Below are positions 217-13,836 of a stretch of DNA of 24,324 nt, piece after piece. The DNA comes from a virus. The notes below the pieces were generated by a model. It was given only the letters and a program-made list of their open reading frames with translations. It did no database searches and was not told where the DNA came from. The stretch covers positions 1 through 24,324 of the IMG/VR virus record IMGVR_UViG_3300032401_000084; one strand, 5' to 3'. Position 1 is the stretch's first letter. Each line of letters starts with the position of its first letter. The translations under genes were made by a program, and so were the position numbers.

Positions 217-371
217 CTCAAATTATAGGTCTCCTCCAACTCAGGCTCGTATTTAATTTTGCCAACCATGGTGTGACCCCCCTTAAATTATAGGTCTCCT
301 CCAACAATTACCATATTTTCTTAACCAAACCAAAAGGTGTGACCCCCCTTAAATTATAGGTCTCCTCCAAC
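217..371 (-). CRISPR. Orphan CRISPR-like array 1 (two spacers), type VI-B-like repeat
   Basis: Read on the minus strand, there are two full 36-nt repeats (371-336 and 305-270) and one truncated 24-nt repeat (240-217). They are separated by unique spacers of 30 nt (335-306) and 29 nt (269-241). The repeat begins GTTGGAGGAGACC and ends GGGGGTCACACC. The full copies here read TTTAAGGGGGG in the middle, while the truncated terminal copy reads TTTGAG, the form found in array 2. The first repeat is also the coding 3' end of copy B, and the truncated repeat is followed by ATAATATG, which starts copy A. No cas gene lies in the window. Repeat and spacer lengths fit types II, V or VI. Similarity to Cas13b direct repeats (recalled, not searched) favours VI-B. 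Direction is inferred from the gene and from the repeat ends. Confidence 0.75.
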
Positions 372-625
372 CATACCTTCAAAATGTCCTGTGTTTCCAA
401 CTCTTCCAACCCAAAAATGGATTCAATAAGAAACCAAATTCTTTCGTAATTTATATAAACATACCTATTTTTTGAATCCTGGTAATAGTAAAATAACGGT
501 TTTCGGTCCTCATCAACATAATATGTTTTATCATCTTTAACCACCGGAGTTAGATCACCAAACTCTTTGTTTAACCATTTTAACACTAACGTATCCCTAC
601 TACTTTCAGTAATTATTATTTTCAT
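308..625 (-). CDS. Array-linked small protein, copy B, running into array 1
   Basis: This 105-residue protein starts at ATG 625 (MKIIITESSRDTLVLKWLNKE). Residues 1-80 or so match copies A and C. The C-terminus VWLEETYNLRGVTP is encoded by the first CRISPR-like repeat, and the last residues plus the stop codon lie inside the first spacer (stop at 308-310). So the final eight residues are spacer-encoded and probably not under selection. An ancestral end WLEETYNLR-stop can be read from the truncated repeat at 240-217. A TATTTATA motif lies four bases upstream of the ATG, just after the methyltransferase terminator, so this gene plus the array probably forms the start of a transcript. The N-terminal ITE followed by S could be a prohead-protease site, but copy C lacks it. 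Function is unknown. Confidence 0.8.
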   Translation of the reverse strand: MKIIITESSRDTLVLKWLNKEFGDLTPVVKDDKTYYVDEDRKPLFYYYQDSKNRYVYINYERIWFLIESIFGLEELETQDILKVWLEETYNLRGVTPFGLVKKIW

Positions 626-4089: not shown

Positions 4090-5574
4090 TTAAGACGTTC
4101 TTATAACAACATAATCTGTACCATTTATTTCAATTTTATCATAACTATCATTATAACCACCAATATTACTATAATCATTTTCACGAACCAAAGTGTTAAC
4201 AAATGAACGTCTATCAATAAAATTATCCATATTTATTTCATAGTCGTTAATCCATCTCATAGGATCACTTCTTACCTCATCCATTCTATCACTAACCTCA
4301 GATTCAACCTCATCATCATCTAAATCACCATCAGGATTATTTTTAATGTCATCAATTTCATCATTAATCTCAACTATCCGATCAGTTCTTTCATCTTCAT
4401 ATTCATCTTCACCATCCTCATAAACATTTCCTGGAGTCGTTAAAATACCACCCTTATATAGTCTCCATTGGTTCCCTTCGTATTTAAACTCAAACTCATT
4501 ATCATTTGCGTCCATAAAATCATACACACCATTTTCAACCGTTAAGTATTGTAATCCTCTAATCCCATAATATTCCAATATCATTTCCTCAACCTGTAAG
4601 TCTCTAATTTCTTTTTCTTGGGAGTCAGACAATTCTCTACGTATACTATAACTTTCCGGACTTTCATATATATCATTTCTAAACATATCTTCAAAATAAT
4701 CCGCAACTTCATCACTATCAATACTAGATTCTAACGTATAAGTATTAAACGACGAATAACCAATGTCATCAACTAGTTGATCAAAATATTCATATAATGC
4801 ATTATCGGCTTCAGATTCTGTTCCAACCATATAATTACCACCATCAAATTCATCATAAGTTGTTTCAAAAACATCTAAATCATAATTAGACCCTCTTGGT
4901 ATCAAACCATAAACATCAACATTCTTTTTTTCTAATTCTTCAATTTCATCCTCCAAATCAGTTATTTCATCATATAATCCCGAGACTTGATCCGGTTCTT
5001 CAACATTATCATATCTCTCTTTTAGATCCTCTAATTGACTTTTTAATGTTGTTAATCTTTCTTTTTCATCATCCCCTAAAACATCAACCATCGCCCCATT
5101 AACAATACTCTCAAATACCGCATTTGCCTTTTCTCCTTCACTATCAATATTTGGATTTTCTAAATCCCACTCACCATTTTCTCTTCTTTCTTGAGCCTCA
5201 TCCAACTCCTCTTGTTTTTTTCTACGATCCAACATATCTTGATATGGTGTTGAATAAACATTAGTATACCCATTTACCATCACATCTTTGATGTCTTTAA
5301 TCTTACTATTTGATAAATCTAACCTACCAGTAACCCATAACTTACCCAAATTAGTAACCGGAGTATTTGATAAATTTAAATCCCCAATAACCTTCAATGG
5401 TTTTCCCCCAAACTTTCTTAATTTTAATAACCCAACGGCATTGTATCCACTTGCAGACAATAGTTGTTTATATTCTGCCGCAGGTATTTCGTAATATTCA
5501 TCATCCTGTTCATTAAGAGTTCTCTTAATAATCTTTATTAATTCAGATTCGGTAAGTTTAATTACTTTTTTCAT
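4090..5574 (-). CDS. Putative capsid-targeted acidic protein with short leucine-rich-repeat segment
   Basis: The protein has 494 residues from ATG 5574; a TTG two codons upstream is less likely. The N-terminal helix ESELIKIIKRTLNE ends in L-N-E followed by Q, which fits a T4-type prohead protease (I/L)xE cleavage site and resembles capsid-targeting leaders. After it come two leucine-rich-repeat-like turns (LKVIGDLNLSNTPVTNLG and WVTGRLDLSNSKIKDI), then charged coiled-coil stretches (RRKKQEELDEAQERRE and a later DLEDEIEELEKK). A very acidic, tyrosine-rich remainder follows. The strong negative charge suits an internal head or core protein. A TATTTATT motif lies four bases upstream of the ATG. 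The virion role is inferred from the N-terminus only. Confidence 0.75.
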   Translation of the reverse strand: MKKVIKLTESELIKIIKRTLNEQDDEYYEIPAAEYKQLLSASGYNAVGLLKLRKFGGKPLKVIGDLNLSNTPVTNLGKLWVTGRLDLSNSKIKDIKDVMVNGYTNVYSTPYQDMLDRRKKQEELDEAQERRENGEWDLENPNIDSEGEKANAVFESIVNGAMVDVLGDDEKERLTTLKSQLEDLKERYDNVEEPDQVSGLYDEITDLEDEIEELEKKNVDVYGLIPRGSNYDLDVFETTYDEFDGGNYMVGTESEADNALYEYFDQLVDDIGYSSFNTYTLESSIDSDEVADYFEDMFRNDIYESPESYSIRRELSDSQEKEIRDLQVEEMILEYYGIRGLQYLTVENGVYDFMDANDNEFEFKYEGNQWRLYKGGILTTPGNVYEDGEDEYEDERTDRIVEINDEIDDIKNNPDGDLDDDEVESEVSDRMDEVRSDPMRWINDYEINMDNFIDRRSFVNTLVRENDYSNIGGYNDSYDKIEINGTDYVVIRTS

Positions 5575-5578
5575 ATAC

Positions 5579-5586
5579 AATAAATA
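5579..5586 (-). promoter_or_regulatory. TATTTATT variant of the candidate phage promoter
   Basis: The minus-strand context GAGTATATTTATTGTATATG differs from the common octamer by its last base and lies 4 nt before ATG 5574. The intergenic region to 5669 also holds a plus-strand site, so this is a divergent promoter region. Confidence 0.35.
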
Positions 5587-8277: not shown

Positions 8278-8943
8278 TTATATATTTTTCCATCGTTTAT
8301 TATTTTTTATCGCACTTAAATAACTTTTATTAAATTGCGGATACATATTTGAGATTTCTTTAATTTTAAATCCTTCTTTAAATTTATTTTTTATTTCTTT
8401 TATTAATTCAACCCCATATTTTGAGTTTTTTCGTACAATTTCATTAGCTTTACTAACTCGTTTTTCTTTGTCTTCCTTTGATATTGATCCCCAACCTTTT
8501 TTAACCGATAATCTTCGTTTTTCTCTTTCCTCATCAGCTTTATCACCATATAATTCTTCATATGTTTTACCTTTATGTGAATTACCATCTCTAGTGTTTT
8601 CAGAAATCTTTTTTCTTATTTCAGGTGAATGAACATACCCTAAACAACCTTCACCACCTACCGTAGAATTTAACCCATATTCATATGTTTTAAATTCAGT
8701 AATATAAAATTTTTCTCTTTCGTATATTACAGATATCTCACATTCTTCAATTAATTCTATATTAAAATTTTCAACACTATATTTTCGTATAGAATTACAA
8801 AATTTAGTATTAGAATCAGATTTTAAACATCTATAAATATGTTCTTCAAATCTTTTATTTATGGGATAAATTGTACATCCAATATACTTTTTTTCGTTTA
8901 TTAGATTTGTTATTTTATATATGTTACCTTTTTTTACGCTCAT
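8278..8943 (-). CDS. GIY-YIG homing-type endonuclease with NUMOD3-like segments
   Basis: This 221-residue endonuclease has the GIY-YIG core at the N-terminus: GNIYKITNLIN, then KKYIGCTIYPINKRFEEH, with the catalytic arginine in NKRFEEH and a later YEREKFYITEF. The following GLNSTVGGEGCLGYVHSPEIRKKIS and KTYEELYGDKA segments are the NUMOD3-type DNA-binding repeats typical of phage Seg-like and intron endonucleases. A basic helical tail follows. It is probably a free-standing mobile gene inserted between the thioredoxin gene and the unknown gene at 8990. Its very AT-rich, lysine-rich composition differs from the neighbours and fits recent mobility. A TATTTATA motif is 13 nt upstream. Confidence 0.9.
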   Translation of the reverse strand: MSVKKGNIYKITNLINEKKYIGCTIYPINKRFEEHIYRCLKSDSNTKFCNSIRKYSVENFNIELIEECEISVIYEREKFYITEFKTYEYGLNSTVGGEGCLGYVHSPEIRKKISENTRDGNSHKGKTYEELYGDKADEEREKRRLSVKKGWGSISKEDKEKRVSKANEIVRKNSKYGVELIKEIKNKFKEGFKIKEISNMYPQFNKSYLSAIKNNKRWKNI

Positions 8944-8989: not shown

Positions 8990-9328
8990 TTATTTTAATT
9001 TTGATAATTGTTTTATGAATAACACAACCTCATCTAATTGCGCAACATCGTATATTACTTTTATTTTATAAGTAGCCTCAACATCCATTTTAGATAAGTA
9101 TAAAAATATTCCTGCAGGATTTTTAAATATTCCTTCCGAATGAACTAAACTACCCCCATAAGATTTACTACTAAGATACTCACTTGTAAATCGTTTAGTC
9201 AATAAAAGTTCAGGAGTAATCGGAATATGATCCATACAATCAATAACACTATACACTTTACCAGTAGTTTCAAGTAATGATTTTAAGAAATCATTCTCTT
9301 TTATAAAATATTTTATTTCATTTTCCAT
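8990..9328 (-). CDS. Hypothetical protein following array 2
   Basis: This 112-residue protein begins MENEIKYFIKENDFLKSLLETTGKVYSV and contains DCMDHIPITPELLLTKRFTSEYL, SKSYGGSLVHSEGIFKNP and a final helix (LDEVVLFIKQLSKLK). The start ATG lies 5 nt after the truncated terminal repeat of array 2 (TTTGAGATAATATG), exactly as copy A lies after array 1. Before the array appeared, this gene was presumably the direct downstream neighbour of copy C, with a normal TAATATG junction. No domain is recognised, and there is no evidence that it is a Cas protein. Confidence 0.75.
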   Translation of the reverse strand: MENEIKYFIKENDFLKSLLETTGKVYSVIDCMDHIPITPELLLTKRFTSEYLSSKSYGGSLVHSEGIFKNPAGIFLYLSKMDVEATYKIKVIYDVAQLDEVVLFIKQLSKLK

Positions 9329-9333
9329 ATTAT

Positions 9334-9687
9334 CTCAAATTATAGGTCTCCTCCAACTTTTATACAAAGTATGATAATAGGAAGTGTGGTGTGACTCCCC
9401 TCAAATTATAGGTCTCCTCCAACCTTCATCAATATCACTTGTAGATAATCCAGGGTGTGACTCCCCTCAAATTATAGGTCTCCTCCAACTTTCCAAATAT
9501 CTTTGCACCAGTTGATTTCGGGTGTGACTCCCCTCAAATTATAGGTCTCCTCCAACGTCTCCTGCTCCTATACATCCAGCCCCACAGGTGTGACTCCCCT
9601 CAAATTATAGGTCTCCTCCAACTTTCTGATCCTTTCACAACCACAATCAAGGGTGTGACTCCCCTCAAATTATAGGTCTCCTCCAAC
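9334..9687 (-). CRISPR. Orphan CRISPR-like array 2 (five spacers), type VI-B-like repeat
   Basis: There are five identical full 36-nt repeats on the minus strand (9687-9652, 9622-9587, 9556-9521, 9489-9454, 9423-9388) and a truncated 24-nt copy (9357-9334). The five spacers are unique: 9651-9623 (29 nt), 9586-9557 (30), 9520-9490 (31), 9453-9424 (30) and 9387-9358 (30). The repeat starts GTTGGAGGAGACC, has TTTGAGGGG in the middle and ends GAGTCACACC, with a short internal CCT/AGG pairing. It contains TATAAT at repeat positions 14-19. The first repeat is the coding tail of copy C, and the last is cut after position 24 and followed by ATAATATG. No cas gene is nearby. Repeat length, about 30-nt spacers and the repeat ends resemble Cas13b arrays of Bacteroidota (recalled, not searched). 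Confidence 0.85.
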
Positions 9688-9920
9688 CATACCTTCACAA
9701 TCGCCTGTGAATCAGAGTAGTTAAGACCAAAAATGGATTCAAAAAATACCCAAATTCTTTCGTAATTAACATAAACATACCCATTTTTTGAATCCTGGTA
9801 ATAGTAAAATAACGGTAATCCGTCCTTATCAACATAATATGTTTTATCATCTTTAACCACCGGAGTTAGATCACCAAACTCTTTGTGTAACCACTTTATT
9901 ACCAATTTTTGTTTATCCAT
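9600..9920 (-). CDS. Array-linked small protein, copy C, running into array 2
   Basis: I chose ATG 9920 (MDKQKLVIKWLHKEFGDL); a TTG three codons upstream is also open. It shares with copies A and B the blocks KEFGDLTPVVKDDKTYYVDK, LFYYYQDSKNGYVYVNYERIW and FFESIFGL. The end VWLEETYNLRGVTP is the first repeat of array 2. Reading then continues through the 29-nt first spacer and stops at 9600-9602, inside the second repeat. So the last 16 or so residues are array-derived and frame-shifted, and are probably not meaningful. The gene begins a few bases after the terminator of the DUF932 gene. Family and function are unknown; the constant link to arrays in all complete copies is its main clue. Confidence 0.78.
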   Translation of the reverse strand: MDKQKLVIKWLHKEFGDLTPVVKDDKTYYVDKDGLPLFYYYQDSKNGYVYVNYERIWVFFESIFGLNYSDSQAIVKVWLEETYNLRGVTPLIVVVKGSESWRRPII

Positions 9921-9927
9921 ATTAACC

Positions 9928-9953
9928 AAAAAAAGGAGGGCGATTAACCCTCC
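9928..9953 (-). terminator. Intrinsic terminator after the DUF932 gene
   Basis: Minus-strand GGAGGG (9953-9948), loop TTAATCG and CCCTCC (9940-9935) form a perfect 6-bp GC stem, followed by seven T residues. It lies 8 nt before the copy C start codon. Confidence 0.88.
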
Positions 9954-12990: not shown

Positions 12991-13836
12991 TTATTGATAA
13001 TTCATTATAAGAAGTTCTTCTCCCATGTTTTGTTTCGTTCCCTTCTTTGCCGAAGCTGCCTTAGCAAACTCCTTTTTTTCCCAAATATACTCATTTTTTG
13101 GAAACCAATCACTAAGAATTTCAAAATCATAATAAGATAATGAAAATTTACCCTCCATACCTTTTAATACATTCGCCAAACGTTCGTGATCCTCTCTATC
13201 AAAGTCGTGGTTAGAATAATAGTTTTCAGTTTTCCAATATGGGGGATCAACATAAAAATAAGTTGTCGGTGAATCATACTTGGCAATAACATCAGCAAAA
13301 TCCATATTCTCAACCTCACTAATCTTTAAGAAATGTTCAACCCAATCAGGTTTAGATAATTTATCCCTAAAAGTTAAATACTTTGATTTGTATTTACCCT
13401 TCAAATCAATAAATGAACTTTTTTCAGGTTTTGACCCACTAAACACCTGTGTTAAGATATAAACATATTTAGCCGCAACCTCATAATTACCAGGTTCTAC
13501 GCTGAAATTTTCAGCAAATATTTCAGCCTGAAACCTTACAAACTGTTCTTTATAAGTTGGTGGTGTAACTTCTTCACCAAATTTTTGACAGTCAATTGAG
13601 TTAATTGCCTTTAATAATTCACTTGGGTTTTGAACACACTTAAATAGATTATAATTTAATGGATTAAAGTCGTTGTAAACGACTTTCTTTAGGTTTGGGA
13701 ACTCTTTCAAGCCCATACTAAAAAATGTCCAGAACATTCCACCAAAAACTTCCACAAATTCTTCAATATCGTTTGGGATATTTGGTATTATTAGTTTTGG
13801 GGCGATTTTACTCTTACCCCCAATATAAGATAACAT
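12991..13836 (-). CDS. dam: DNA adenine N6-methylase, D12 (Dam) class
   Basis: This 281-residue enzyme is the usual size for the D12 class. The first residues MLSYIGGKSKIAPKLI correspond to the conserved WxGGK start. The SAM-binding motif I is FVEVFGGMFWTFFSMG (the usual form is EPFxGxGA, so the second glycine-rich half is altered). KVVYNDFNPLNYNLF is the N/D acidic block, and the catalytic DPPY is at 197-200 (TYFYVDPPYWKTENYY). A C-terminal FSLSYYDFEILSDWF matches the family. It probably methylates a short adenine-containing site to protect phage DNA or time its processes; the site (GATC in classic Dam) cannot be confirmed. The stop of the upstream HNH gene is 6 nt before its start, so the HNH gene may have integrated beside it. 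Confidence 0.88.
   Translation of the reverse strand: MLSYIGGKSKIAPKLIIPNIPNDIEEFVEVFGGMFWTFFSMGLKEFPNLKKVVYNDFNPLNYNLFKCVQNPSELLKAINSIDCQKFGEEVTPPTYKEQFVRFQAEIFAENFSVEPGNYEVAAKYVYILTQVFSGSKPEKSSFIDLKGKYKSKYLTFRDKLSKPDWVEHFLKISEVENMDFADVIAKYDSPTTYFYVDPPYWKTENYYSNHDFDREDHERLANVLKGMEGKFSLSYYDFEILSDWFPKNEYIWEKKEFAKAASAKKGTKQNMGEELLIMNYQ

Follow-up and report, generated by a model that had tools for sequence, protein, structure and literature searches.

Small CRISPR arrays without cas genes are already known from viruses. The mini-arrays of Saccharolobus portogloboviruses hold one or two spacers, have host-like leaders and repeats and probably receive their spacers from adaptation proteins of the host; the spacers match related viruses, and close relatives differ in the spacer at the same position (PMC6858448). 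Huge phages carry compact arrays, reported near phage cas genes (PMC7162821), and for none of them is anchoring in a coding module known to have been described. Mimics of CRISPR repeats also occur in phages as RNA anti-CRISPRs or solitary repeat units (PMC10651486). Among bacterial systems, type VI-B arrays (Bergeyella, Flavobacterium) combine 36-nt repeats with ∼30-nt spacers and grow at the GTTG side, and in Flavobacterium these arrays acquire spacers in trans through the type II-C Cas1 (PMC8092290). Type II integration depends on no more than 10 bp of the leader and 5 bp of the repeat, and a short junction motif suffices for off-target integration by Cas1-Cas2 (PMC6895254).

The phage arrays described here resemble those of the portogloboviruses in being viral and cas-less, those of huge phages in being compact and borne by large phages, and VI-B arrays in dimensions, sequence and direction of growth. 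Unlike the portoglobovirus arrays, they hold up to seven spacers, have a coding gene where a leader would stand and a repeat that drifts with this gene, with no exact host match and no full protospacer. They differ from VI-B arrays in that the first repeat is coding, and we found neither Cas13b nor a conserved hairpin, nor anything to suggest that mRNA is targeted. RNA anti-CRISPRs are solitary repeats with a crRNA-like structure, whereas the phage arrays are multi-unit and growing, and no mimicry of RNA structure was seen. In contrast to off-target integration, the phage site is conserved across a gene family and is used repeatedly. We found no open-access paper on arrays anchored in a coding gene, and this arrangement seems undescribed.

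Results

The window, the whole stretch of DNA analysed, is an IMG/VR virus record of 24,324 bases, possibly a fragment. In array 1 the 36-nt repeat GTTGGAGGAGACCTATAATTTGAGGGGAGTCACACC occurs on the minus strand in five identical copies, with a 24-nt truncated terminal copy, and no two of its spacers (29, 30, 31, 30 and 30 nt) are alike (Table 1). Five identical 36-nt repeats, five unique spacers of 29-31 nt and a truncated last repeat, as given in the original prediction, were all recovered; the coding first repeat, array 2, the direct join of the truncated repeats to the next gene and the recurrence of this anatomy in other phages go beyond that prediction. Since five identical 36-mers at a spacing of 65-67 nt within 24 kb exclude chance, array 1 is confirmed as real. 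The full repeats of array 2 each carry two changed bases relative to array 1, and the genes carrying the two arrays are paralogues. In both arrays the next gene begins, with ATAATATG, directly at the truncated repeat; behind array 2 this gene is a third paralogue, which has its ATG at 209-211 and is incomplete because the contig ends within it. No other viral contig carries the exact repeat of the window, and an Rfam search gave chance-level matches only. Elsewhere in the window are a gene resembling those of GIY-YIG homing endonucleases (8278-8943, downstream of array 1) and two DNA methyltransferase genes (661-1527 and 12991-13836). N-termini like MKIIITES or KKVIKLTESEL recur in the gene at 4090-5580 and in many module genes, and are possibly a common targeting or cleavage signal.

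Table 1. Features of the two arrays, in window coordinates.
Feature	Position	Strand	Remarks
Gene module upstream of array 1, in leader position, ending in repeat 1	9652..9920	-	ATG 9918-9920; from homologues and alignment
Array 1 repeat 1, coding (LEETYNLRGVTP)	9652..9687	-	In frame within ORF 9600-9929(-)
Array 1 spacer 1, 29 nt	9623..9651	-	Translated into the C-terminal tail of the gene
Array 1 repeat 2	9587..9622	-	
Array 1 spacer 2, 30 nt	9557..9586	-	20-nt core without viral contig match
Array 1 repeat 3	9521..9556	-	
Array 1 spacer 3, 31 nt	9490..9520	-	
Array 1 repeat 4	9454..9489	-	
Array 1 spacer 4, 30 nt	9424..9453	-	
Array 1 repeat 5	9388..9423	-	
Array 1 spacer 5, 30 nt, terminal	9358..9387	-	
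Array 1 truncated terminal repeat, first 24 nt	9334..9357	-	Adjoins start of ORF 8990-9328
Array 2 paralogous gene module, ending in its own repeat 1 (336-371)	336..625	-	
Array 2 repeat 2	270..305	-	Flanking spacers 306-335 and 241-269
Array 2 truncated terminal repeat	217..240 (about)	-	Adjoins third paralogue

With the protein of the window paralogue as query, 74 viral loci were retrieved, and two repeat patterns added more. A repeat profile gave 239 instances, of which 131 are distinct by content, a count that includes single repeats without a following unit and in which one contig can give several loci; 99 of these have at least one spacer. The family holds 193 unique spacers, mostly of 30 nt and up to seven per array, and their lengths are broader than in the bacterial VI-B arrays extracted here. 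The same anatomy, an array behind the end of a coding gene, recurs in many IMG/VR phage contigs; nothing resembling the repeat was found in the annotated phage collection. A host repeat that is the same or nearly the same was likewise not found: the repeat had no match in ∼ 85,000 species genomes or in 395 genomes of one phylum, sets from which the true host is possibly absent, and the module was not found in the bacterial genomes sampled, where the protein search was run without a positive control genome. Judged by one gene (DUF932, 33% identity), Flavobacterium phages are the nearest relatives in culture, a weak hint to the host.

The repeat unit has sharp edges. In 100 internal repeats, identity to the first repeat of the same array covers exactly positions 1-36 and is at background level on either side. 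As in any CRISPR array, the direct repeats are nearly identical, and the spacers between them are unique and similar in length. Around the array, two contigs (L124 and L131) show 99.5% and 100% identity and differ solely in the gene-proximal spacer, and of two others (L118 and L056) one array equals the other plus one extra gene-proximal unit. In every partially sharing pair the shared spacers are distal and the differing ones gene-proximal, so that growth is polarised and terminal spacers are common to relatives, as in CRISPR arrays generally; the pairs amount to about six independent comparisons, some, such as those of L016, L019 and L025, not being independent. L118 is an exception in that the last 12 nt of its new first repeat differ from the next repeat. 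Terminal repeats of the family lose identity beyond about position 23. In L020, L021, L022 and L023, near 5325-5430, a late repeat enters a poly-G tract of variable length, which is followed by an older unit.

For comparison with type VI-B, a degenerate repeat pattern applied to ∼ 85,000 species genomes yielded 32 loci, nearly all from Bacteroidota; the pattern fixes part of the consensus, and the set is not representative of all VI-B repeats. Cas13b adjoins the array in all three loci tested. Compared with 21 real VI-B repeats, that of the window scored 19 (z 9.8 over shuffles), a score that none of 4000 random phage 36-mers reached and that lies just under the range of 21-34 among VI-B repeats themselves. 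Against 11 repeat consensuses near other cas1 genes, a set that includes several variants of a single repeat, its score was at most 2. Phage repeats of the family likewise align with the VI-B set far better than shuffled sequences do, and not with these 11 consensuses. The resemblance to VI-B repeats proposed in the original prediction is upheld, and the repeat is not one that lacks similarity to every CRISPR class. Repeat length (36 nt) and spacer length (∼ 30 nt) also agree with VI-B. The phage repeats are more variable than real VI-B repeats, and the stable hairpin with a GTTG/CAAC stem, clear in most of the latter, is mostly missing or weak in the former; covariation gave no support for a VI-B-shaped RNA structure. 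Our cas searches in phage contigs covered Cas13b and Cas1. None of 50 contigs, often fragments, yielded Cas13b, for which the original prediction had suggested a search (the gene may lie in the host), and none yielded Cas1 above cut-off. Within this scope the predicted phage-borne, cas-less array was borne out, and the absence of cas genes from the virus agrees with other virus-borne mini-arrays.

Under a codon model the score of the non-terminal spacers, -3.81, lies between those of shuffled spacers (-3.99) and real coding 30-mers (-3.68). They show no clear strand preference (56% sense-like), the newest ones being spread over the frames of both strands, and look like coding DNA of either strand. 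In five large contigs, with 25 spacers in all, no spacer recurs within its own contig (at most 16 matching bases, like reversed controls), and templating from within the genome, as by a diversity-generating retroelement or gene conversion, was thus not seen in these five. Viral contigs, the annotated phage collection and 50 full contigs yielded no full protospacer. No spacer matched the annotated phage collection, and three spacer cores had no match beyond their own array. The comparison with the 50 full contigs, in which large contigs were scored on their best candidates only, returned array copies, homologous arrays and weak matches; weak matches of 19-22 bases mostly equalled the level of reversed controls. 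The best match joins 22 consecutive bases of an L014 spacer (23/31 overall), in sense orientation, to an intein that eight phage contigs carry in a helicase gene, and it is suggestive only. Phage helicase-like genes with a LAGLIDADG-type intein matching this spacer over 22 bases were noted in L212-L219; gene and intein are named from sequence motifs. When 198 bacterial VI-B spacers were compared with the phage loci, matches were confined to 21-base stretches with two mismatches.

By translation, repeat 1 of array 1 encodes the C-terminal W-LEETYNLRGVTP of its ORF. Across the family, 111 of 115 first repeats (contig-edge cases excluded) are read in frame +1 within a long ORF, and the TG|GKTG junction is 96-100% conserved across 108 modules, which may reflect the invariant tryptophan codon alone. 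No excess synonymous conservation was seen in the coding repeat. The module of ∼ 97 residues has a confidently predicted structure (mean pLDDT 88.8), with no match at E < 0.001 in a structure search of the PDB; in this model the last strand (residues 96-100) would be formed by the end of the repeat and the first residues of the tail. Fusions of the module occur as well: its partners are an Fe/Mn superoxide dismutase, a protein whose weak DHH match falls below the curated cut-off, and an unknown protein of ∼ 530 residues. Array-bearing modules were noted at the C-terminus of unrelated proteins, one of them a superoxide dismutase, in L008 (3496-4989), L014 (320-2125) and L025 (3621-5264).

Two clades differ in how the array is read. 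Clade B arrays (GGTGG repeats) mostly keep the frame and none of their 26 non-first spacers has a stop in the gene frame, so translation through the array is maintained there. In clade A, that of the window, 73 of 83 arrays have no read-through and ∼ 54% of the spacers have a length that three does not divide; older spacers seem to have somewhat fewer gene-frame stops. A solenoid built of translated units was considered but gained no support; the extra units of one clade B protein are predicted to be disordered (pLDDT near 30). In a different gene family, L054 (4140-5400) encodes about ten in-frame units of 22 residues, each made of VEDTIQNGVKHT and 10 variable residues, the same 36 + 30 nt design.

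Discussion

Beyond what was observed directly (a sharp 36-nt unit, gene-proximal growth, spacers that look like coding DNA and have no source in their own contig, a VI-B-like repeat and a coding first repeat), we consider it probable that the phage arrays owe their growth to CRISPR-type integration of spacers, with a leader-repeat mimic within a protein-coding module as the site. The integrating enzyme, which we infer along with its host origin, is probably the Cas1-Cas2 of the host acting in trans. At the 3' end of the module it would recognise the TG|GKTG junction together with the 36-bp repeat, insert ∼ 30 bp of foreign DNA and duplicate the repeat; the coding repeat would stay with the gene, the new spacer would supply its C-terminal tail and older units would shift away. 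Each proposed step has a published parallel (PMC8092290; PMC6895254; PMC6858448). The repeat, however, varies as if it followed the gene rather than one host repeat. The mismatch in the first repeat of L118, the broader spacer lengths, the failure to find a full protospacer and the absence of repeat and module from the sampled bacteria also speak against integration of this kind.

That the end of the gene was simply repeated in tandem by slippage or recombination is hardly credible: the repeat is indeed the coding end of the gene, but slippage would have copied the spacer too, and this is contradicted because the spacers are unique and do not come from the same genome; the repeat edges, moreover, are sharp. 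We also find it improbable that the arrays serve to diversify the protein, each insertion providing a new C-terminal tail whose variability is selected. Translated first spacers, the predicted last strand that would span repeat end and tail, the open frame of clade B and the in-frame units of L054 argue for such a role, whereas the off-frame lengths of clade A, the persistence of 36-nt identity past the stop codon and the predicted disorder of the additional units in one clade B protein argue against it. There is equally little likelihood that a phage-encoded integrase outside the CRISPR systems writes the arrays. Module and repeat have so far been seen in viruses only, and Cas1 stayed below cut-off in the 50 contigs, but no candidate enzyme was found and the similarity to VI-B repeats would be left unexplained. 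To our knowledge, only CRISPR integrases insert ∼ 30 bp with duplication of a repeat-length segment.

The function proposed in the original prediction, supply of working guide or decoy RNAs to Cas13b, gained no support from our indirect tests: no conserved hairpin, no antisense bias and no host repeat in ∼ 85,000 genomes. As a guide-RNA mini-array, the locus would be transcribed with the gene and processed by a host Cas13b for use against rival phages or host transcripts, a function compatible with array growth through the Cas1-Cas2 of the host. We regard it as unlikely. The VI-B-like repeat and spacer sizes, the position of the array behind a gene in the VI-B direction, the working viral mini-arrays of this kind in archaea (PMC6858448) and the intein match of the L014 spacer are consistent with it. 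On the other hand, the sole partial spacer match is in sense orientation, the truncated terminal repeat would deprive the last spacer of a full repeat, and the spacers lack an antisense bias, whereas VI-B spacers from natural F. columnare isolates reportedly target mRNA (PMC8092290). Slightly less unlikely is an adaptation decoy, in which copies of the leader-repeat mimic absorb the integration complexes of the host, so that its own arrays would gain anti-phage spacers more slowly. Similarity to VI-B at the DNA level without a conserved RNA structure would fit, as would the presence of several modules per contig, some fused to unrelated genes; the 1-4 modules on each of five large contigs may, however, be too few for competition. 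On these indirect negative results, a DNA-level effect, in which integration is absorbed or tolerated, looks more likely than guide RNAs. We tentatively raise the possibility, to which we would give rather less than even weight, that the phage gene module is itself an integration site, whose coding 3' end captures foreign DNA without making guide RNAs, either as a sink for the CRISPR adaptation machinery of the host or through its own integrase.

CRISPR-like arrays with a coding gene at the leader position recur in many uncultured phages, and searches that rely on cas genes or on host-identical repeats would miss them. If growth by spacer integration, the account we prefer, is confirmed, these arrays would amount to a natural archive of spacers inserted into the DNA of phages, and the diversion of host CRISPR adaptation by phages would become testable.
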